NCBI RefSeq assembly: GCF_003319095.1
Contig: NZ_QOHI01000005.1
Span: 124,001 to 188,000, forward strand
Direction: 5' to 3'
Source of the DNA: Blastococcus sp. TBT05-19
GTDB taxonomy: Bacteria; Actinomycetota; Actinomycetes; Mycobacteriales; Geodermatophilaceae
DNA length: 64,000 nucleotides
Shown: piece after piece, positions 3,178 to 28,986 of the stretch
Numbering within the stretch: the stretch's first letter is position 1
Layout of the letters: each line of letters starts with the position of its first letter
Notes under the pieces: generated by a model
Told to the model about the DNA's origin: nothing
The model's input: the letters and a program-made list of their open reading frames with translations, nothing else
Databases searched by the model: none
Translations under genes and position numbers: made by a program

Positions 3178-4533
3178 GTGACTGAGATCCCTGGCCAGCA
3201 CCCGCCGGAGCGGCGGGCGACGGCTGCCCGCCCCGCGCGATCCCGGGCGCCACGGCGCCTCGCGGGCGCCGCGGCCGGCGTCGTCCTGGCCTCCACCCTC
3301 GCGGCCTGCGGAGGCGGCGGTAGCGGGGGGGTGCCGACGCTCACCTGGTACACCAACCCCGACTCCGGCGGGCAGGCCGAGCTGGCCGCGCGCTGCACCG
3401 ACGCCGCCGAGGGCCGCTACCGGATCTCCACCGCGGTGCTCCCGCGCGACGCGGCCGGGCAGCGCGAGCAGCTGGTCCGCCGCCTCGCCGCGAGCGACAC
3501 CTCGATCGACATCATGAGCCTCGACCCGCCCTTCATCCCGGAGTTCGCGGCGGCCGGCTTCCTCGCCGAGATCCCCGAGGACGTCGCCGAACGGGTGACC
3601 GAGGGTGTCGTCCAGGGAGCCATCGAAGGGGCCACCTGGGACGACGAGCTCGTCGCGGTCCCGTTCTGGGCGAACACGCAGGTGCTCTGGTACCGCAAGT
3701 CGGTCGCCGAGGCGGCCGGCCTCGACATGGAGGAGCCGGTCACCTGGGAGCAGATCGTCCAGGCCGCCGAGGAGCAGGGGAAGCTCGTCGGCGCCCAGGG
3801 CGCCCGGGCCGAGTCGCTCACCGTGTGGCTCAACGCGCTCATCGAGTCCGCCGGCGGCTCCATCATCGAGGAGAACGCCGAGGACCCGGCCGACATCGAG
3901 CTGGGTCTCACCTCCGACGCCGCGACGCGCGCGGCCGAGGTCATGAACCTGGTCGCCTCCTCCGACGCGGCGAGCCCCGCCTTCTCCACCGAGAACGAGG
4001 ACGCCTCGGCCACCGGGTTCGAGAGCGAGAACGGCGGCTTCCAGGTCAACTACCCGTTCGTCTACGCCCGCGCGCTGGGCGCCGTCGAGGCGGGGTCGCT
4101 GGAGGCCTCGGTGCCGGAGGACTACGGCGCCGCGGTCTACCCGCGGGTCGACCCGGACGAGCCGGCCGCTCCGCCGCTGGGCGGCATCAGCCTGGGCATC
4201 AGCGCCTTCAGCCCGGACGTCGACCTCGCGCTCGAGGCCGCCGAGTGCATCACGTCGGCGGAGAACCAGGCGTTCTACTTCGTGAACGACGGCAACCCGG
4301 CGTCGAAGGCGGAGGTCTTCGACGACCCGGAGGTGCTCGAGTCCTTCCCGCAGGCGCCGGTGATCCGGGAGTCCCTGGAGCTGGCGAAGCCGCGACCGCA
4401 GACCCCGTACTACAGCGAGGTCTCCGGCGGCATCCAGCGGGTGTACCACCCGCCGGCCTCGGTGGACGAGAACACCGGCGAGGCCGCAGCCGAGCTGATC
4501 AGCGCGGTGCTCCGAGGGGACCAGCTGCTGTGA
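3178..4533 (+). CDS. lpqY: LpqY-like trehalose-binding lipoprotein of ABC importer
   Basis: 451 aa extracytoplasmic solute-binding protein (family 1 type). GTG 3178 is preferred because GGAGG at 3165-3169 is 8 nt upstream; ATG 3172 in the same frame would be only 2 nt away. A signal peptide with an Arg-rich n-region (PRRLAG) ends in the lipobox LAAC, so Cys44 should be lipidated and anchor the protein outside the membrane. The mature N-terminus (WYTNPDSGG ... LPRDAAGQREQLVRRLAAS) lines up with mycobacterial LpqY as I remember it. It heads an operon with two permeases and an ATPase; the next gene starts 13 bp downstream. Trehalose specificity is inferred from that resemblance; another alpha-glucoside is possible. 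Confidence 0.8.
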   Translation: MTEIPGQHPPERRATAARPARSRAPRRLAGAAAGVVLASTLAACGGGGSGGVPTLTWYTNPDSGGQAELAARCTDAAEGRYRISTAVLPRDAAGQREQLVRRLAASDTSIDIMSLDPPFIPEFAAAGFLAEIPEDVAERVTEGVVQGAIEGATWDDELVAVPFWANTQVLWYRKSVAEAAGLDMEEPVTWEQIVQAAEEQGKLVGAQGARAESLTVWLNALIESAGGSIIEENAEDPADIELGLTSDAATRAAEVMNLVASSDAASPAFSTENEDASATGFESENGGFQVNYPFVYARALGAVEAGSLEASVPEDYGAAVYPRVDPDEPAAPPLGGISLGISAFSPDVDLALEAAECITSAENQAFYFVNDGNPASKAEVFDDPEVLESFPQAPVIRESLELAKPRPQTPYYSEVSGGIQRVYHPPASVDENTGEAAAELISAVLRGDQLL

Positions 4534-22274: not shown

Positions 22275-24608
22275 GTGCCCGCTCCGCGTCCCGCCCGCAC
22301 CGGGCGCCGGCCGGGCCGTCTGGCCGGCCTGCTCACCGTCGTCCTCCTGCTGGCGCTGGCCGCCTGGACCGTGCTCGGGCTGCAGCCGCCGGACCCGCGG
22401 TCGGCCGACGCCCCGGCCGGTGAGTTCAGCGCCGAGCGCGCGTTCGCGCACGTCGAGCGGATCGCCGCCGGCGTCCACGTCGCCGGCAGCCCGGAGAGCG
22501 CCGACGTCGTCGACGGGCTGGTCGGCACGCTGACGGAGCTCGGCCTGGACACCCGGGTGCAGACGGCCGTCGGTGCCCGGGCGGGCGGCGCGGGGGAGAC
22601 CCGCATGGCGCGGGTGCAGAACGTGGTCGGCGTCCTGCCCGGCACCGACCCCACCGGCCGGCTCTACCTGATGGCGCACCACGACTCCGCCGAGGCCGGG
22701 CCGGGCGCGGCCGACGACGCCGCGGGTGTCGCCGCGCTGCTGGAGTCCGTCCGGGCGCTGACGGCGGGGCCGGCGCCGCGCAACGACGTCGTCGTCGTGC
22801 TCACCGACGCCGAGGAGGCCTGCCTGTGCGGCGCGGAGGCCTTCGCGGCCTCGCACCCGCTGGCCGGCGGCGGGGTGGTGCTGAACTTCGAGGCCCGCGG
22901 CACGAGCGGCCCGCCGATCATGTTTGAGACGTCGCGGGGCAACGCCGGTCTCGCCGATGCGTTCGCGGCGGCCGCGGAGCACCCCGTGGCGAGCAGCTTC
23001 GCCGTCGAGGTCTACCGCGCGCTGCCCAACGACACCGACTTCAGCGTGCTGCTCGACGACGGCGACTTCACCGGCATGAACACCGCCTTCATCGACGGTG
23101 CCGCCGGCTACCACTCGCCGCAGGACACCCCCGACCGGCTCAGCCGCGCCACGCTGCAGGCCCTCGGCGACAACGCGCTGGCCCTGACCCGCGCGCTGGG
23201 CGACCGCGACCTCGCCACCCTGGCCGAGCCCGGCGGCGAGGACGCCACCTACTTCCCGCTGCCCGGGCGGCTCGTCCAGTACCCGGGCGCCTGGGTGTGG
23301 CCGCTCGCCGGCGCGGCGCTGGTCGCCGTCGCGGGCCTGGTGCTCGCCCTCCGGGCACGCGGCACCAGCTCGCTGCGCCGCACCGCCTCGGGTGCGCTGC
23401 TCGCCCTCGTGCCGCTGGTCGTGGCGCCGCTGGCCGCGCAGGGGCTGTGGGCGCTGCTCGTCGCCGTGCGGCCGGGCTACGCCACGATGCTGGACCCGTG
23501 GCGGCCCGGCTGGTTCCGGCTGGCCGCGGTCGCCGTCGTCCTGGCCGTGGTGCTGCTCTGGTACGCGCTGCTGCGCCGCCGGATCGGCCCGGCGCCGCTG
23601 GCTGCGGGCGCGCTGGTCTGGCTCGCCGCGGGAGCCGCGGTGCTCGCCGCCGTGGCGCCCGGCGGCTCCTACCTCGTGGCGTGGCCGGCGCTGGTCGGTG
23701 CGCTCACCGGCCTCGTCGCCGCGCTGGCGCCCTCGGGGCCGGTGCGCGTCCTGGCGGCGCTGCTCACCGGTGCGGCCGCCGTCCTCGTGCTCGCGCCCAC
23801 CGCCGCGCTGTTCTTCCCGGCGCTGGGGCTCTCCCAGGCGCTCGCGCCGTCGGTCGTCGTCGTCCTCGCGGCCCTGGCCCTGCTGCCCGCCGCGGAGCTG
23901 CTCTTCCCCGACCCCGACCAGCGGAGCCGGCTCGCCGCCACGGCGGTACCGGCCACCGCGCTCGTCGTCGCCGCCTTCTGCGCGCTGACGGGGCTCGCGG
24001 TGGACCGCTTCGACGCCGCCCACCCGGTGCCCAGCCGGCTGGCCTACGTGCTCGACACCGACCGCGGCGAGGCCCGGTGGGTGAGCACCGAGACGACGCC
24101 GGGGGAGTGGACCGCCCGCTTCGTCGACGGACCCGGCAGCCTGGGCGCGGACTTCCCCTACCTGGCCGGCCGCGAGGTGCAGACCGGGCCCGCCGAGGCC
24201 GCGGAGCTCAGCGCCCCGGAGGTCACGGTCGTCTCCGACGACGTCGTCGGAGGACGCCGGGAGATCACCGTGCGGATCACGCCGCGGCGCGACGACGTCC
24301 GGCTCGTCGACCTCGAGCTCACCGTCGACGCCGGAACCGTCGTGCGCGGGCGCATCGGCGGCCGGGCGGTGCCCGAGGACGCGGTGGGGGAGGACCGGCT
24401 GCGGGTCACCTTCCACGCGCCCCCGGCCGACGGGTTGCAGGCCGGCTTCACCGTCGAGGGCGACGGGCCGGTGCGGCTGCGCGCCACCGACGCCAGCGAC
24501 GGCCTGGCCGGGCTCCCCGGCTTCGAGCCGCGACCCGAGGGCGTCGACGTCGCCGGCACCCACGGCGCGGACCTGCTGCTGGTCACCGCCGTCACCGACG
24601 TGGGCTGA
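22275..24608 (+). CDS. M28-family membrane metallopeptidase
   Basis: 777 aa. After an N-terminal membrane anchor (residues about 17-35) comes an M28 aminopeptidase domain with the zinc-site pattern AHHDS, ADDAAGVAALLE, DAEEACL, FEARG and YHSPQDTPDRLS. These supply the His, Asp, Glu, Glu and His ligands. Eight or nine hydrophobic segments follow (about residues 335-580), then a soluble beta-rich tail of about 190 residues. This is the layout of the FXNA/ER-metallopeptidase-like branch. The active domain should face outside. Cargo is unknown. A GGAGG site precedes GTG 22275. The sensor operon begins 73 bp downstream. Confidence 0.85.
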   Translation: MPAPRPARTGRRPGRLAGLLTVVLLLALAAWTVLGLQPPDPRSADAPAGEFSAERAFAHVERIAAGVHVAGSPESADVVDGLVGTLTELGLDTRVQTAVGARAGGAGETRMARVQNVVGVLPGTDPTGRLYLMAHHDSAEAGPGAADDAAGVAALLESVRALTAGPAPRNDVVVVLTDAEEACLCGAEAFAASHPLAGGGVVLNFEARGTSGPPIMFETSRGNAGLADAFAAAAEHPVASSFAVEVYRALPNDTDFSVLLDDGDFTGMNTAFIDGAAGYHSPQDTPDRLSRATLQALGDNALALTRALGDRDLATLAEPGGEDATYFPLPGRLVQYPGAWVWPLAGAALVAVAGLVLALRARGTSSLRRTASGALLALVPLVVAPLAAQGLWALLVAVRPGYATMLDPWRPGWFRLAAVAVVLAVVLLWYALLRRRIGPAPLAAGALVWLAAGAAVLAAVAPGGSYLVAWPALVGALTGLVAALAPSGPVRVLAALLTGAAAVLVLAPTAALFFPALGLSQALAPSVVVVLAALALLPAAELLFPDPDQRSRLAATAVPATALVVAAFCALTGLAVDRFDAAHPVPSRLAYVLDTDRGEARWVSTETTPGEWTARFVDGPGSLGADFPYLAGREVQTGPAEAAELSAPEVTVVSDDVVGGRREITVRITPRRDDVRLVDLELTVDAGTVVRGRIGGRAVPEDAVGEDRLRVTFHAPPADGLQAGFTVEGDGPVRLRATDASDGLAGLPGFEPRPEGVDVAGTHGADLLLVTAVTDVG

Positions 24609-24619
24609 CCGCCCACCCG

Positions 24620-24648
24620 GATGAGAGAGTTCTCATCCGGCTCTCACC
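24620..24648 (+). promoter_or_regulatory. Predicted response-regulator operator, site 1
   Basis: Three hexamer boxes lie on one strand: GATGAG at 24620, CTCATC at 24632 and CTCACC at 24643. The last two are 11 bp apart, one helical turn, as bound by OmpR/PhoB-type regulators. Box 3 ends 20 bp before the -10 hexamer CAGGCT at 24669. The same geometry recurs at two other promoters near this two-component system. The first two boxes also form an inverted repeat, so a hairpin at the end of the M28 gene is an alternative reading. Confidence 0.55.
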
Positions 24649-24668
24649 GCCCCGACACCGCGACGGTG

Positions 24669-24674
24669 CAGGCT
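24669..24674 (+). promoter_or_regulatory. Leaderless-type -10 element for the acidic protein/two-component operon
   Basis: CAGGCT ends 7 nt before GTG 24682. It lies 20 bp downstream of the last operator box, with no recognisable -35, as expected for an activated promoter. Confidence 0.45.
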
Positions 24675-24681
24675 GGGCGCC

Positions 24682-24972
24682 GTGCGCCCCCGTCTCGTGC
24701 TCGTCCTGCTGGCCGGGCTCGCCGTCGTCCTGCTCGCCGGCGGGACCGTGTGGGCACTGCTGCGCCCCTCCGCGGAGAGCGGGGTGTCGGTGCCACCGCC
24801 GATCGAGGTCCCGGTGCCCGCCACCGCCAGCGACCCGGCACCCCCGGAGCCGACGAGCGCACCCACGCCGCCGCCGTCGGCACCGGCCACCGACGTCGTC
24901 GCTCCACCACCGCTGGACGACGACGACGATGACGAGGACGACGACGAGGACGACGCCGACGATGACGACTGA
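24682..24972 (+). CDS. Small membrane-anchored protein with Pro-rich stalk and poly-acidic tail
   Basis: 96 aa. A hydrophobic signal or anchor helix (residues 5-26) is followed by a Pro/Ala/Ser/Thr-rich stalk (residues about 37-78). The C-terminus is about 18 almost uninterrupted Asp/Glu residues (79-96, with one Ala). No Cys-containing lipobox is present, so it is anchored by the helix or secreted. The tail could bind Ca2+ or other cations, but this is only composition-based. The gene overlaps the histidine kinase by 11 bp and shares its promoter, which suggests it works with the sensor. No known family recognised. Confidence 0.65.
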   Translation: MRPRLVLVLLAGLAVVLLAGGTVWALLRPSAESGVSVPPPIEVPVPATASDPAPPEPTSAPTPPPSAPATDVVAPPPLDDDDDDEDDDEDDADDDD

Positions 24973-26542
24973 ACCGGGAACGGCAAGGCCCGGAGCGCGG
25001 AGACGTCTGCGGAGCCGGCTGGCGCCCCGAGCCGCCCGGACGCGGATCATCGGCTGGGTCCTGCTCCTGGTGCTGCTCGCACTGGCGTTGGTCACGCTGG
25101 TCACCTGGCGGCTGCTGGTCCGGGCCACCGACGAGCGCATGGACGTGGCGCTGGAGGCCGAGGTCGAGGAGTTCCGGCGGATCGTGGCGGGCACCGTCGA
25201 TCCGGCCACCGGCCGGCCGTTCGAGTCGGTCTCCGACGTGCTGCAGACGATGATCACCTACAACCTCGCCAGGCCGAACGAGAAGTTCCTCGGCTACGTC
25301 GACGGCGAGTACCGCTTCCAGAGCCGGATCGAGGCACCGGTGCTGCTCAGCGAGGACGCCGACTTCGCCGAGCTGGTCGGGTCGGCCTCCGAGCCCACCG
25401 CCGGCCGGTACGCCAGCGGAGCCGGTGAGGTCCGCTACCTCGCCGTCCCGGTGGACCTCGAAGGAGACCCCGCTCGCGGGGTGGCCGTCGTCGCCTACTT
25501 CGCCGACCAGGAACGCCAGGCTGCCGACGACACCGCCCAGCTGATGCTCGGGGTCGGGGCGGTCACCGCGCTCCTGGCGGCCGGGGGTGCGTGGGTCGTC
25601 GCCGGTCGCGTTCTCGCGCCGGTCCGCGCGGTGGCGACCACCGCGCAGGGCATCACCGAGACCGACCTCTCCGGCCGCATCCCGGTCGAGGGCCGCCCCG
25701 CCGACGAGCTGACCGACCTCGCCCGGGCGGTCAACGCGATGCTCGACCGCGTGGAGAACGGTGTGGCCGCCCAGCGCCGGTTCCTCGACGACGCCGGCCA
25801 CGAGCTGCGCACCCCCATCACGATCGTGCGCGGCCACCTCGAGGTGCTCGACCCCGCGGACCCCGGCGACGTCCGGCAGACCGTCGCCCTCGTCGACGAC
25901 GAGCTCGAGCGGATGAACCGCATGGTCTCCGAGCTGCTCCTGCTCGCCCGCGCCGAGCAGCCGGAGTTCGTGCGGGTCCAACCGGCCGACGTCGCGGCGC
26001 TCACCCGGGAGGTCTTCGGCAACGTGCGCCGGCTCGGTGAGCGCGACTGGCAGCTGGGCGGCGTGGCCCGTGCCGACCTGCTGCTGGATCCGCAGCGGCT
26101 CGCGCAGGCCGTCGTCGCCCTCGCCGACAACGCCGTCCAGCACACCCGGCCGGGCGACCGGATCACCCTCGGCAGCCGGCTGTCCGGCGACCGGCTGCTG
26201 GTCTGGGTGGACGACGCCGGTCCGGGGATCGCGCCGGCCGACCAGGACCGGATCTTCGAGCGCTTCGCCCGGGGCAGCTCCGGCGCCCGGCGCAGCGACG
26301 GCGCCGGGCTCGGGCTGTCCATCGTGCAGGCCATCGCCGCGGGTCACGGCGGCTCCGTCGAGCTGCACAGCAGGCCGGGGGAGGGCGCGACGTTCACCCT
26401 CGTCCTGCCGGCCCGCCCGGCGCCGCCGCGGAACGCCTACCCCGAGGACCTGACCGCCGGCGTCGACGGCACCGTGGACGAGGCGCTCGCCACCCCGCCG
26501 CTGGACCCCCGTCCCGTACCGACCGAGGGAGGACCCCGGTGA
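24962..26542 (+). CDS. HAMP-domain sensor histidine kinase
   Basis: 526 aa. TM1 lies at about residues 29-53, an extracytoplasmic sensor region of about 140 residues follows, TM2 at about 194-216, then HAMP (217-270). The HisKA dimerisation box has the phospho-acceptor His280 (DDAGHELRTPIT), and the ATPase domain has the N box around Asn390 (LADNAVQHT), G1 (DDAGPGI) and G2 (DGAGLGLSI). All catalytic residues are present. It should phosphorylate the regulator encoded next (overlap GTGA). The start ATG lies inside the Asp-codon run of the upstream gene. The N-terminal 28 residues are Arg-rich. Confidence 0.93.
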   Translation: MTTEPGTARPGARRRLRSRLAPRAARTRIIGWVLLLVLLALALVTLVTWRLLVRATDERMDVALEAEVEEFRRIVAGTVDPATGRPFESVSDVLQTMITYNLARPNEKFLGYVDGEYRFQSRIEAPVLLSEDADFAELVGSASEPTAGRYASGAGEVRYLAVPVDLEGDPARGVAVVAYFADQERQAADDTAQLMLGVGAVTALLAAGGAWVVAGRVLAPVRAVATTAQGITETDLSGRIPVEGRPADELTDLARAVNAMLDRVENGVAAQRRFLDDAGHELRTPITIVRGHLEVLDPADPGDVRQTVALVDDELERMNRMVSELLLLARAEQPEFVRVQPADVAALTREVFGNVRRLGERDWQLGGVARADLLLDPQRLAQAVVALADNAVQHTRPGDRITLGSRLSGDRLLVWVDDAGPGIAPADQDRIFERFARGSSGARRSDGAGLGLSIVQAIAAGHGGSVELHSRPGEGATFTLVLPARPAPPRNAYPEDLTAGVDGTVDEALATPPLDPRPVPTEGGPR

Positions 26543-27201
26543 GCCGGGTGCTGATCGCCGAGGACGAACCGCGCATCGCTGCGTTCGTCGAGAAGGGCCT
26601 GAGGGCCAACGGGTTCACGACCACCGTCGTGGACGACGGGCTGGCCGCGCTGGACCGGGCCCGCAGCGGCGCGTTCGACCTCGTGGTCCTCGACATCGGC
26701 CTGCCGGTCCTCGACGGGTTCGCCGTCCTGCGCGCCCTGCGCGCGGAGCGCGTTCCCGTGCCGGTGATCGTGCTGACCGCGCGCGACAGCGTCCAGGACA
26801 CCGTGGCAGGTCTCGAGGGCGGCGCGGACGACTACATGGCCAAGCCGTTCCGGTTCGAGGAGCTGCTGGCGCGGGTGCGGCTGCGACTGTCCGGCGCGCG
26901 CGCGGGGGAGGTCACGGTGCTCACCGCCGGAGGGCTGTCCCTGGACCTGCGCACCCGGCGGGCCGGCGTCGACGGGCGGGTCGTCGACCTCTCCGCCCGC
27001 GAGTTCGCCCTCGCCGAGACCTTCCTGCGCCATCCGGGGCAGGTCCTGGCGCGCGAGCAGCTGCTCAGCCAGGTGTGGGGCTACGACTTCGACCCAGGCT
27101 CCAACGTCGTCGACGTCTACGTCCGCTACCTGCGCAAGAAGCTCGGGGCGTCCCGCATCGAGACCGTGCGCGGCATGGGCTACCGGCTGATCGCCGCCTG
27201 A
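26539..27201 (+). CDS. OmpR/PhoB-family response regulator
   Basis: 220 aa. The receiver domain has the acidic pocket (AEDEP), phospho-acceptor Asp52 (VVLDIGLPVLDG), the conserved Thr (VLTARD) and Lys (MAKPF). The C-terminal winged helix ends with DVYVRYLRKKLG and ETVRGMGYRL. It starts with GTG overlapping the kinase stop. It is the natural candidate for binding the GATGAG/CTCATC boxes found at 24620, 27669 and 28958, so it would regulate its own operon. Confidence 0.94.
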   Translation: MSRVLIAEDEPRIAAFVEKGLRANGFTTTVVDDGLAALDRARSGAFDLVVLDIGLPVLDGFAVLRALRAERVPVPVIVLTARDSVQDTVAGLEGGADDYMAKPFRFEELLARVRLRLSGARAGEVTVLTAGGLSLDLRTRRAGVDGRVVDLSAREFALAETFLRHPGQVLAREQLLSQVWGYDFDPGSNVVDVYVRYLRKKLGASRIETVRGMGYRLIAA

Positions 27202-27203
27202 AC

Positions 27204-27248
27204 GCCGCGACGGCCCCGGCCCCGCGAGGGGACCGGGGCCGTCGCGGC
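27204..27248 (+). terminator. Strong bidirectional terminator hairpin
   Basis: A perfect 16-bp stem (27204-27219 with 27233-27248) and a 13-nt loop start 3 bp after the response-regulator stop and end 7 bp before the stop of the convergent gene. It should serve both transcripts. No T-tract is seen. Confidence 0.7.
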
Positions 27249-27255
27249 CGGGAGC

Positions 27256-27600
27256 TCAGTCGTCGCCGGGGCTGTCGGCCGTGTCCGGGGTGACGTCGTC
27301 CGGGGTGGCGTCGTCAGGGGTGGCGTCGTCAGGGGTCGCGTCGTCAGGGGTGGCCGTGTCCGGCGAGGCGTCGGGGCTGTCGACGGCGCTCTCGGCCGGG
27401 CTGTCGGCGCTCTCCGGGGAGGCGTCGGCGGCGACGTCGGGCGAGCTGCCCGGCGCGTCCTGAGCAGCGACGGAGACGGCGGCCGGCGCGGAGGTCGACG
27501 CGCCGTCGTCGGCGGTGGCCACGCCGACGCCGACTGCGCCCAGCCCGGCGAGCGCGGTGCCGAAGGTGACGACCTTCCAGGTGGCGGGGGTGCGGGTCAT
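27256..27600 (-). CDS. Secreted Asp/Ser/Pro-rich repeat protein
   Basis: 114 aa from ATG 27600, which has a strong AGGAGG about 8 nt upstream. An N-terminal signal peptide (TWKVVTFGTALAGLGAVGVG, cleavage probably near VATA-DDG) is followed by a low-complexity acidic region ending in four copies of ATPDD-like units and TADSPGDD. No folded domain is visible. Composition is close to that of the poly-acidic protein at 24682, and its promoter carries the same box set. Both flank the two-component system. It may be an extracellular partner, target or cation buffer of that system; function is unknown. Confidence 0.65.
   Translation of the reverse strand: MTRTPATWKVVTFGTALAGLGAVGVGVATADDGASTSAPAAVSVAAQDAPGSSPDVAADASPESADSPAESAVDSPDASPDTATPDDATPDDATPDDATPDDVTPDTADSPGDD
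27287..27346 (-). repeat. 15-bp coding tandem repeat (four units)
   Basis: Four near-identical 15-bp units encode the TPDDA repeat at the C-terminus of the secreted acidic protein. Units two and three are identical. Copy number is likely to vary between strains. Confidence 0.85.
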
Positions 27601-27642
27601 GGGAGTTCCTCCTCGAACGGTGGTGGTGCGCTGTCGAGATCC

Positions 27643-27648
27643 ACTCTC
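27643..27648 (-). promoter_or_regulatory. Candidate -10 element for the acidic repeat protein
   Basis: GAGAGT on the minus strand lies exactly 20 bp after the third operator box (CTCCCG, 27674-27669). It would yield a leader of about 36 nt with the AGGAGG site. Confidence 0.35.
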
Positions 27649-27668
27649 CCCACGCCCGGTGAGGCCTC

Positions 27669-27717
27669 CGGGAGACGGCGATGAGCTCCCTCTCATGCGG
27701 ATGAGTCCGGCCTCATC
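27669..27717 (-). promoter_or_regulatory. Predicted response-regulator operator, site 2 (double)
   Basis: Reading the minus strand: GATGAG (27717-27712), CTCATC (27705-27700), CATGAG (27697-27692), CTCATC (27685-27680) and a degenerate third box CTCCCG (27674-27669). Spacings N6, N6 and N5 match site 1. The first two boxes and part of the third fall in the last codons of the phosphotransferase gene, so chance through coding cannot be fully excluded. Confidence 0.5.
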
Positions 27718-28925
27718 GCAGCCGTGGCCCACTCCTCGGCGAGGGCCACGCGCGCCTCCGTCGCCGTGACCCAGTCCGCCTGCTGCACCCGGAACGGCCC
27801 CGTGGCCAGCCCGACCAGCACGCCCGCCACCCGCGCCTCCAGCTCGCCGGCCGCCCAGCGCCCGGCGAGCAGCTCCTGCACCCGGGCGCGGTACCGGGCG
27901 ACCGGGCCCGGGTCGTCGACCAGCCGCTCGAGCAGGGCCAGGTGCCCCACGAGGGTCGCCCAGTCGTCGATCCGCGCCCCGGGGCCGGCGGTGTCGACGT
28001 CCAGCAGCCCGACCACGGCGCCCGCGTCCACGAGCAGCTGCGCCTCGTAGAAGTCGCCGTGCACCGCGACGACGGGGTGCCTCCCCGCGGCCGCGCCGAC
28101 CACCTCGACGAGCCGGTCCAGCCGGGGGGCCAGCGACGGGCAGACCGCGGCGGTCACCGACGCGTGGGTGCGCACCGAGGGCAGGGGGTCACCCGGGTGG
28201 CGCCGCGGTTCGGCGGCGCCCACCTGCGGCAGCGAGTCGAGCAGCGCCTCGAGGGCAACCGGGTCCGGCAGCTGCGCGGGGTCCCCGGCCAGGGCTGCCC
28301 GCATCGGGGTGCCGGGCAGGCCGGGCAGCACGACGACGCCGTCGTCGGTGGAGGCCAGCGCCGGGGGCACGGGGACGACCGACGCCAGCGCCTCGTGCCG
28401 GGTCACGAGCCGGGCCACCGCCGACGGCCGCACCACCTTGAGGAACCACCGGCCGGCGGGGGACCGCACCTCGACCACGGCGCGTCGCCCGGGCCGGTAG
28501 GCCCGCAGCCGCAGACGGGCGCTCGCGGCGTCGAGGCCGAGTGCTCCCAGCCGCTGGGCAGTGGCCGCCGCGGAGGTCGCCCAGGCCAGTGCGGGCAGTC
28601 CGGGGTCCAGCGGCCAGCGCCACAACCCGACGGTGACCGGGCCACCTGCTGCCTCGCCCTCGACGACGGTGGCCCCCGGCGGGATCGCGCTGCCCGTCGT
28701 CGCCGCGAGGTGCTCCCGCGTGGTGCGTCCGTCGGCCCAGTCGACCACGGCGGCGTGCCGCACGGTGGCCGCACCGCTCGGGCGCAGGTGCGCCGAGGTC
28801 GCGGTGAGGCTCCGCAGCCGTCCACCGAGCGGGTCGAGGACGGCGGTCCACAGCTCCACGGCGGGCTCCCCGAGGAGCACCTGCAACGACGGCGGCCACG
28901 ACGGCGGAGCGAGAGCGGAGTCCAC
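27693..28925 (-). CDS. APH-family phosphotransferase
   Basis: 410 aa with an aminoglycoside-phosphotransferase/choline-kinase-type fold. An ATP-lobe lysine is in RWFLKVVRP, the catalytic loop is VVAVHGDFYEAQLLVD, and the metal-binding Asp is in GLLDVDTAGPG. The N-terminal 150 residues are poorly conserved and may set specificity. The open frame extends to 28988; GTG 28925 is chosen because the GAGGGT hexamer and the three-box operator are then spaced exactly as at 24682. The substrate is unknown; a resistance role should not be assumed. Confidence 0.8.
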   Translation of the reverse strand: MDSALAPPSWPPSLQVLLGEPAVELWTAVLDPLGGRLRSLTATSAHLRPSGAATVRHAAVVDWADGRTTREHLAATTGSAIPPGATVVEGEAAGGPVTVGLWRWPLDPGLPALAWATSAAATAQRLGALGLDAASARLRLRAYRPGRRAVVEVRSPAGRWFLKVVRPSAVARLVTRHEALASVVPVPPALASTDDGVVVLPGLPGTPMRAALAGDPAQLPDPVALEALLDSLPQVGAAEPRRHPGDPLPSVRTHASVTAAVCPSLAPRLDRLVEVVGAAAGRHPVVAVHGDFYEAQLLVDAGAVVGLLDVDTAGPGARIDDWATLVGHLALLERLVDDPGPVARYRARVQELLAGRWAAGELEARVAGVLVGLATGPFRVQQADWVTATEARVALAEEWATAAMRPDSSA

Positions 28926-28931
28926 CCATCC

Positions 28932-28937
28932 ACCCTC
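28932..28937 (-). promoter_or_regulatory. Candidate -10 element for the phosphotransferase
   Basis: GAGGGT on the minus strand ends 6 nt before GTG 28925 and lies 20 bp after the last operator box at 28958. The hexamer itself is weak, as expected for an activator-dependent promoter. Confidence 0.35.
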
Positions 28938-28957
28938 GCTGGCCGCGGTGAACGCCC

Positions 28958-28986
28958 GATGAGACGCCGATGAGCGCGCTCTCACC
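28958..28986 (-). promoter_or_regulatory. Predicted response-regulator operator, site 3
   Basis: Reading the minus strand: GGTGAG (28986-28981), CTCATC (28974-28969), CTCATC (28963-28958), with N6 and N5 spacers. This is the same order, orientation and distance to the -10 as site 1 at 24620. It overlaps the stop codon of the nitroreductase gene. Confidence 0.55.

Follow-up and report, generated by a model that had tools for sequence, protein, structure and literature searches.

Introduction

In the PhoB geometry, the repeats bound by the regulator lie in the -35 region, close to the -10 element. The locus reported here, a two-component system of Blastococcus sp. TBT05-19 surrounded by three look-alike promoters, invites comparison with this arrangement and with a few other described systems. 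It lies in a window of 64,000 nucleotides (nt), the whole stretch of DNA that was analyzed (NCBI RefSeq assembly GCF_003319095.1, contig NZ_QOHI01000005.1, positions 124,001 to 188,000, forward strand); all coordinates below are positions in this window. CopRS of Corynebacterium glutamicum activates its own and a divergent operon, and its 11-bp-pitch direct repeat, TGAAGATTTnnTGAAGATTT, apparently occurs at a single genome site (PMC3140484). TcrXY of Mycobacterium tuberculosis is autoregulated and activates genes for small proline-rich proteins from an operator described as a 7-bp mirror repeat overlapping the -10, for which its authors found no genome-wide consensus (PMC10883919).

At the Blastococcus locus, three promoters carry an operator of four half-sites in fixed register with a -10 hexamer. 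Judged from the DNA and its relatives, these sites are very probably operators of the adjacent OmpR/PhoB-type regulator, which would activate its own operon together with the genes for a secreted Asp-rich protein and an APH-fold kinase.

Operator Layout at the Three Promoters

The original prediction placed one arrangement upstream of the genes starting at 24682 (+), 27600 (-), and 28925 (-): a GATGAG-like box, 6 nt, CTCATC, 5 nt, a CTC-type box, exactly 20 nt, and an NANNNT hexamer. The spacings hold base for base, and the claimed 11-bp step from box 2 to box 3 is present at all three sites. Box 1 is an inverted TGAG box at every site and exact GATGAG at site 1 alone. The count of three boxes was correct as far as it went but incomplete, as a fourth half-site follows 5 nt after box 3. 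The full layout (3/3 sites) is an inverted half-site, box 1, then 6 nt, box 2, 5 nt, box 3, 5 nt, box 4, 9 nt, and NANNNT, with boxes 2, 3, and 4 forming tandem half-sites at an 11-bp pitch.

Read toward gene 24682, site 1 (+) consists of GATGAG (box 1, 24620-24625), AGAGTT, CTCATC (box 2, 24632-24637), CGGCT, CTCACC (box 3, 24643-24648), and a 20-nt stretch that contains GACACC (box 4, 24654-24659), followed by the -10 hexamer CAGGCT (24669-24674). Site 2 (-), before gene 27600, reads CATGAG (box 1, 27692-27697, overlapping the phosphotransferase stop codon), AGGGAG, CTCATC (27680-27685), GCCGT, CTCCCG (27669-27674), and 20 nt including CTCACC (27658-27663), with GAGAGT as hexamer (27643-27648). 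Before gene 28925, site 3 (-) is made up of GGTGAG (28981-28986), AGCGCG, CTCATC (28969-28974), GGCGT, CTCATC (28958-28963), and 20 nt including TTCACC (28947-28952), with the hexamer GAGGGT (28932-28937). All of these elements were read from the letters, and the box 4 pattern and -10 register of site 1 recur in relatives, where box 4 is often GTCACC or TTCACC. A usual -35 element was not seen by eye in any of the three promoters.

The predicted doubling of site 2 is there as well: an extra palindrome, GATGAG-6-CTCATC, lies 2 nt upstream of the site on the same strand (27700-27717, -), within the end of the phosphotransferase gene. Two same-strand operator copies near a secreted-protein gene, which recall this doubled site, were also seen at two related loci (loci and genomes are given by our L and G numbers), L039 (8774 and 8696, 78 bp apart) and L041 (9260 and 8669).

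The distance to the start codon separates the sites. GTG starts lie 60 nt (site 1) and 59 nt (site 3) past the T of TGAG, and because this leaves only 7 and 6 nt, respectively, between the -10 hexamer and GTG, the mRNAs from both sites are probably leaderless. At site 2, the ATG is 95 nt from TGAG and is preceded by a Shine-Dalgarno-like GAGGAGGA.

The register between operator and -10 extends well beyond this locus. The search pattern did not require a -10; nevertheless, among 127 sites, A occupies hexamer position 2 and T position 6 in 91% each. After thinning to 84 non-redundant sites (<75% identity), 69 have both letters in place with the hexamer exactly 20 nt on, compared to 0-4 sites at each of eleven other offsets. 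Eighty-two of the 84 were long enough for a start-codon count, and in 35 of them a start codon with an open reading frame of at least 70 amino acids lies at 59-61 nt. A fixed -10 register fits an activator that touches polymerase, which needs such a register.

Rarity, Conservation, and Co-occurrence With the Two-Component System

A genome scan, one of the checks suggested with the original prediction, does not show the full motif scattered at random through the genome. With at most one mismatch, GATGAGN6CTCATCN5CTC has three matches in the 3.92-Mb genome, all at these promoters, and its backwards control has none; the shorter TGAGN6CTCATCN5CTC returns the same three matches, again with 0 for the control. 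In a matrix scan of the 64-kb window, the three sites, two of which were in the training set, scored 51.0, 51.7, and 54.5 bits, and no other position reached at least 22; 640 kb of first-order Markov sequence gave 0 matches. The bare direct repeat CTCATCN5CTCATC (up to two mismatches) is unspecific, and we dropped it as a genome-wide signal because it matched 146 times vs. 72 for the backwards control.

Conservation upstream of related genes, also suggested as a check, is clear among the nearer kinase relatives. We kept 80 loci from a kinase search in named genomes, the nearest being those of Blastococcus species (83-86% identity), and divided them into nearer (L034-L077) and distant (L078-L113) loci, placing the boundary where the matches shrink to the C-terminal part at about 27-37% identity; the distant set contains many loci from other phyla. 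TGAGN6CTCAN7CTC is found in at least one place at 36 of the 44 nearer loci and at 0 of the 36 distant ones. Both checks, genome scan and conservation, thus turned out in favor of the original prediction. The 36 motif-bearing loci include Blastococcus, Geodermatophilus, Klenkia, Pseudonocardia, Actinomycetospora, Rhodococcus, Mycolicibacterium, and one Paeniglutamicibacter. By eye, the genes behind the conserved sites encode the small operon protein, the secreted Asp-rich protein, and the phosphotransferase. The phosphotransferase gene was seen in this position within the family (here and below, the one to which Blastococcus and Geodermatophilus belong) and at two further loci, L049 of Pseudonocardia bannensis and L058 of a metagenome-assembled actinomycete.

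The matrix was also applied to kinase loci that lack the strict pattern and were outside the training set (L238-L263): 20 of 26 have a match of at least 22 bits, three of them barely (22.0-22.2), and most matches are a GATGAA or TTCATC variant with unchanged spacing. Removal of 7 paralogue-like and 4 duplicate entries from 103 regulator rows left 92, and 79 of these show a match of at least 22 within 5 kb, a count that is not independent because the loci were picked by kinase or motif and many of them trained the matrix.

Two side observations concern these more remote relatives. In a more distant kinase group (L239-L263; e.g., L248:2518, L253:1670, and L262:5084), the variant operator (GATGAA, TTCATC, same spacing) precedes the gene for the operon protein, and several of these loci have a second site before a sodium:sulfate-symporter-type permease. 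A metagenome record titled Synechococcales cyanobacterium (L074:2151-6200) contains repeat-like boxes with a kinase 39% and a regulator 54% identical to those here, and may be a distant relative.

To relate sites to the two-component system across whole genomes, we used a 36-nt pattern written from orthologous sites, box 4 included, with kinase cut-offs of E up to 1e-100 in the family and up to 1e-90 in the order. Of 112 family genomes, 38 contain the pattern (0 for the backwards control), 36 the kinase, and 33 both (Fisher value 1.2e-19). In 298 genomes of the order, a draw from a larger group, the corresponding numbers are 33, 55, and 28, with one match of the backwards control (G305); outside the family, they are 16, 39, and 13.

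A phylum scan by DNA alone found the pattern in 18 of 396 genomes, including the source genome, and its control in none. Twenty regions surround the matches in the 17 other genomes. Nine of these regions (L280, L281, L282, L284, L288, L290, L294, L295, and L298) encode a regulator 62-72% identical to the one here, in contrast to 36-45% for the paralogues of the regulator in its own genome, and one more (L291) has a fragment. Three of the 20 are chance-like (L285, L286, and L287, with no match of at least 22, or 23.9). Counted by genome, a regulator or fragment is nearby in 10 of the 14 other genomes with non-chance matches. The tie between the promoters and the regulator at 26539, which the original prediction had inferred, is supported at the level of sequence by this co-occurrence and by the neighborhoods of the sites found from DNA alone.

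Genes of the Locus

The operon behind site 1 begins with a small protein (24682-24972, +) that has a hydrophobic N-terminus, a Pro-rich middle, and an Asp-rich tail; searches of Pfam and NCBIfam gave no match for it, and orthologues occupy the same place in relatives. The start of the histidine kinase gene (24962-26542, +; HAMP, HisKA, and HATPase_c by Pfam/NCBIfam) overlaps its end. A structure model of the kinase sensor region combines long helices and antiparallel strands (predicted local distance difference test, pLDDT, 84), and its matches, to PAS/PDC-like sensors such as WalK, KinD, and CzcS, are weak, with just one at E <0.001.

The response regulator (26539-27201, +) is of the OmpR/PhoB type in both databases, with receiver (Response_reg, PF00072, 5.3e-27) and winged-helix (Trans_reg_C, PF00486, 1.7e-26) domains past their cut-offs. 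In NCBIfam, the kinase and the regulator both had their highest scores with heavy-metal subfamily models, CzcS/CopS (TIGR01386) and CzcR/CopR (TIGR01387), which stayed below their cut-offs (209.1 vs. 292.55 and 203.2 vs. 279.2), as did the equivalog models CseB (181.1 vs. 350) and MtrA (177.9 vs. 300).

Site 2 precedes a secreted-looking Ser/Pro/Asp-rich protein with an ATG start (27259-27600, -), which has orthologues in relatives and no match in a Pfam search. The product behind site 3 (27693-28925, -) is predicted to be an APH-type phosphotransferase from its modeled fold and catalytic residues. The model shows an APH fold with an N-terminal cap (pLDDT 84.8), and HGD, Lys, and Asp are invariant across 11 sequences. 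The best Foldseek matches are mycobacterial maltokinase/APH(3') kinases, 4u94 (4e-8) and 4h05 (1.5e-7), which share the fold, HGD, and Lys/Asp with it at low identity (16-21%) and query TM-scores of about 0.4. APH kinases usually carry N after the HGD motif; unlike them, the site 3 product has Q. No Pfam family matched the site 3 product itself up to E 0.1, and in NCBIfam it had only a weak APH match; orthologue-type proteins at L199, L214, and L215 do match PF01636.

Directly upstream of the operon and on the same strand is a gene (22275-24608) for a peptidase of the M28 family that has a long C-terminal part, before which gene no matrix match of at least 22 was found.

Candidate Targets in Other Genomes

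Similar sites precede further kinds of genes in other taxa, as judged by the pattern, with only the three sites described here in the source genome. Most further sites from the phylum scan precede genes for APH-like or protein kinases, secreted Asp- or SPD-rich proteins, beta-solenoid proteins, and ATP-grasp enzymes. Among the genes behind sites are those for DUF7282 lipoproteins (L155 and L157), a DUF4956 protein (L213), a phytase-like lipoprotein (L196), APH kinases (L199, L214, and L215), a protein kinase (L236), a RimK-like (L234) and a further (L224) ATP-grasp enzyme, and a cell-wall-binding protein (L223), and variant sites precede sodium:sulfate-symporter-type permeases (L247, L253, L261, and L262). 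Many of these likely targets would be extracytoplasmic or membrane proteins.

A glycosyltransferase (L144) and a major facilitator superfamily transporter (L194) also stand behind sites, and each may be lineage-specific or due to chance. The same may be said of a P-loop protein of about 370 amino acids that lies behind an operator, followed by an ATP-binding cassette transporter-type gene, in L210 (2999-4099; no match in a Pfam scan) and L154 (3964-5076). Secreted-looking proteins of about 187 amino acids with repeated short motifs and no Pfam match are encoded about 100 nt behind the operator in L149 (292-852) and L203 (2394-2957).

Discussion

We infer binding, phosphorylation, activation, signal, and target roles as follows. 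The adjacent kinase would phosphorylate the regulator, which would then bind tandem boxes 2-4 and inverted box 1. Boxes 2-4 have the tandem half-sites one helical turn apart near -35 that mark OmpR/PhoB-type operators. As boxes 3-4 cover the -35 region and end 9 nt before the -10, much like a pho box, the regulator would act as a class II activator at promoters that lack a usual -35. A second dimer, head to head with the first, would fit box 1. The operon (small Asp-rich protein, kinase, and regulator) would then be under positive autoregulation, and the secreted Asp-rich protein and the APH-fold kinase would be co-induced, as an extracytoplasmic response to a cue sensed beyond the membrane.

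Several observations weigh against this reading. The OmpR/PhoB family mostly uses head-to-tail sites, and an inverted box is unusual. Six of the 26 held-out kinase loci fall below 22 bits; L250, L255, and L257 fit the layout by a relaxed pattern (the L255 hexamer is one base off), and L243 reaches 19.4. A relaxed search of Pseudonocardia L063, L065, and L067 found no such site. The Fisher value for co-occurrence takes no account of shared ancestry. Exceptions occur in both directions: 3 of the 36 kinase-bearing family genomes (G056, G059, and G065) and 27 of the 55 in the order are without the strict pattern, and the kinase is missing at the cut-off from 5 of the 38 family genomes with the motif and from 5 of the 33 such genomes in the order. 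Sites outside the strict pattern in G056, G059, and G065 score 23.4, 37.2, and 52.8 bits. Of the motif-only family genomes, G009 has no matrix match of at least 22 and looks like chance, G068 has a regulator end at a contig edge, and in G039 a phosphotransferase match of 53 residues lies close to the end of a contig. Around the sites in G046 (8 kb) and G023 (17 kb), none of the five locus proteins was matched. Some of these genomes look like relics or broken contigs. In G046 (L147), where the kinase is absent at the cut-off, two operators about 230 bp apart, at 3852 (+) and 4117 (-), resemble leftovers of promoters whose system has been lost.

Other explanations were weighed against activation by the adjacent regulator. 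The least improbable, though still unlikely, is that the regulator, once bound, acts as a repressor, either at all of these promoters or at some of them while activating the rest. Only 9 nt separate the operator from the -10, so a bound regulator might equally get in the way of polymerase, and CutR of Streptomyces activates or represses depending on position (PMC12802291). Unlike activation, however, repression does not demand a fixed distance to the -10, which is exact in 69 of 84 sites, and none of the three promoters shows the usual -35 by eye. We give distinctly less credence to an unlinked factor that binds the palindrome of boxes 1 and 2 while the two-component system merely rides along. 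Palindromes like GATGAG-6-CTCATC are typical of other dimeric regulators, and the second copy at site 2 comprises just this part; on the other hand, boxes 3 and 4 and the -10 are kept in phase with the palindrome, the link to the adjacent regulator holds in the phylum scan, and a reading of loci by eye revealed no further regulator gene as a regular neighbor.

Marginally less probable again is that PhoP, the phosphate regulator, or RegX3 uses the sites as PHO boxes. The PHO unit GtTCAccnnnn is likewise an 11-nt direct repeat (PMC6754071), TCAYC is common to both, and box 4 is often GTCACC or TTCACC. Boxes 2 and 3, however, are CTC-type rather than GTTCACC repeats, and the inverted box 1 is foreign to a PHO box. 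Distribution also argues against it, as the genome has only three sites and their presence tracks the kinase (33 of 38 motif-bearing family genomes), whereas PhoP is, to our knowledge, nearly universal. Chance likeness of three GC-rich promoters we regard as next to impossible: the bare direct repeat is indeed common (146 matches vs. 72), but the full pattern occurs three times in the genome, always here, against 0 for its control there and in the 112 family genomes, and the sites are conserved before orthologous genes.

From three similar promoters, the favored reading, activation by the adjacent regulator, derives a specific prediction of regulator, operator, and promoter. Its DNA signature finds likely targets across actinobacteria, namely secreted Asp-rich proteins, DUF7282 lipoproteins, DUF4956 membrane proteins, sodium:sulfate-symporter-type permeases, and kinases. 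The mixed inverted and tandem operator in strict -10 register also offers a clean test of the OmpR/PhoB activator arrangement, leaderless promoters included. That anionic protein might be laid over the cell surface in answer to an envelope cue is an idea suggested by the kinds of targets. As a long shot, the sites could mark a regulon that spans the actinobacterial phylum, is so far undescribed, and relies on a single promoter type (one inverted and three tandem half-sites, a fixed -10, and often a leaderless start); the kinase of this regulon would modify the co-induced Ser/Pro/Asp-rich secreted proteins before export to build a polyanionic surface layer. This kinase would be APH-fold in most taxa seen and a Ser/Thr protein kinase or RimK-like ATP-grasp enzyme elsewhere, at equivalent sites; the logic would be comparable to that of phosphoprotein matrices.

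Comparison With Known Systems

Judged by titles and the opening lines of abstracts, we found no published description of such an operator with such targets in the open-licence literature, nor a paper naming an MprA box; because the search covered open-licence papers only, a description that we have not seen may exist. We regard the system as one of OmpR/PhoB type with an unusual operator, the regulon of which is apparently undescribed. The PhoP PHO box, TcrX, CutR, and CopR were each set aside as the known type on motif or distribution. PolR of Microlunatus, a DevR-like regulator with GTTCACnnnnnGTTCaC, was set aside as well (PMC6754071).

As far as the available passages show, this operator is found in none of the closest precedents, which resemble the system in architecture (PHO-box activation and CopRS) or in small proline-rich targets (TcrXY). 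TcrXY would share autoregulation and such targets with the system here, and its operator layout differs, by description and not by letters. CutRS/CssRS of Streptomyces likewise represents two-component control of secreted or envelope proteins, with a CutR motif, TAWATAAA (PMC12802291), that is unlike the operator here. CopRS differs in its copper-resistance targets, in other gene content, and in having no inverted box in its described operator, although the GATGAA operator variant shares the letters TGAAGA with its repeat. PhoB/PhoP boxes have an OmpR/PhoB-type regulator and 11-nt repeats in common with this locus (PMC6754071); unlike them, the operator described here combines CTCAYC-type half-sites, a third tandem half-site, and an inverted upstream half-site, often before leaderless genes and with very few targets per genome.

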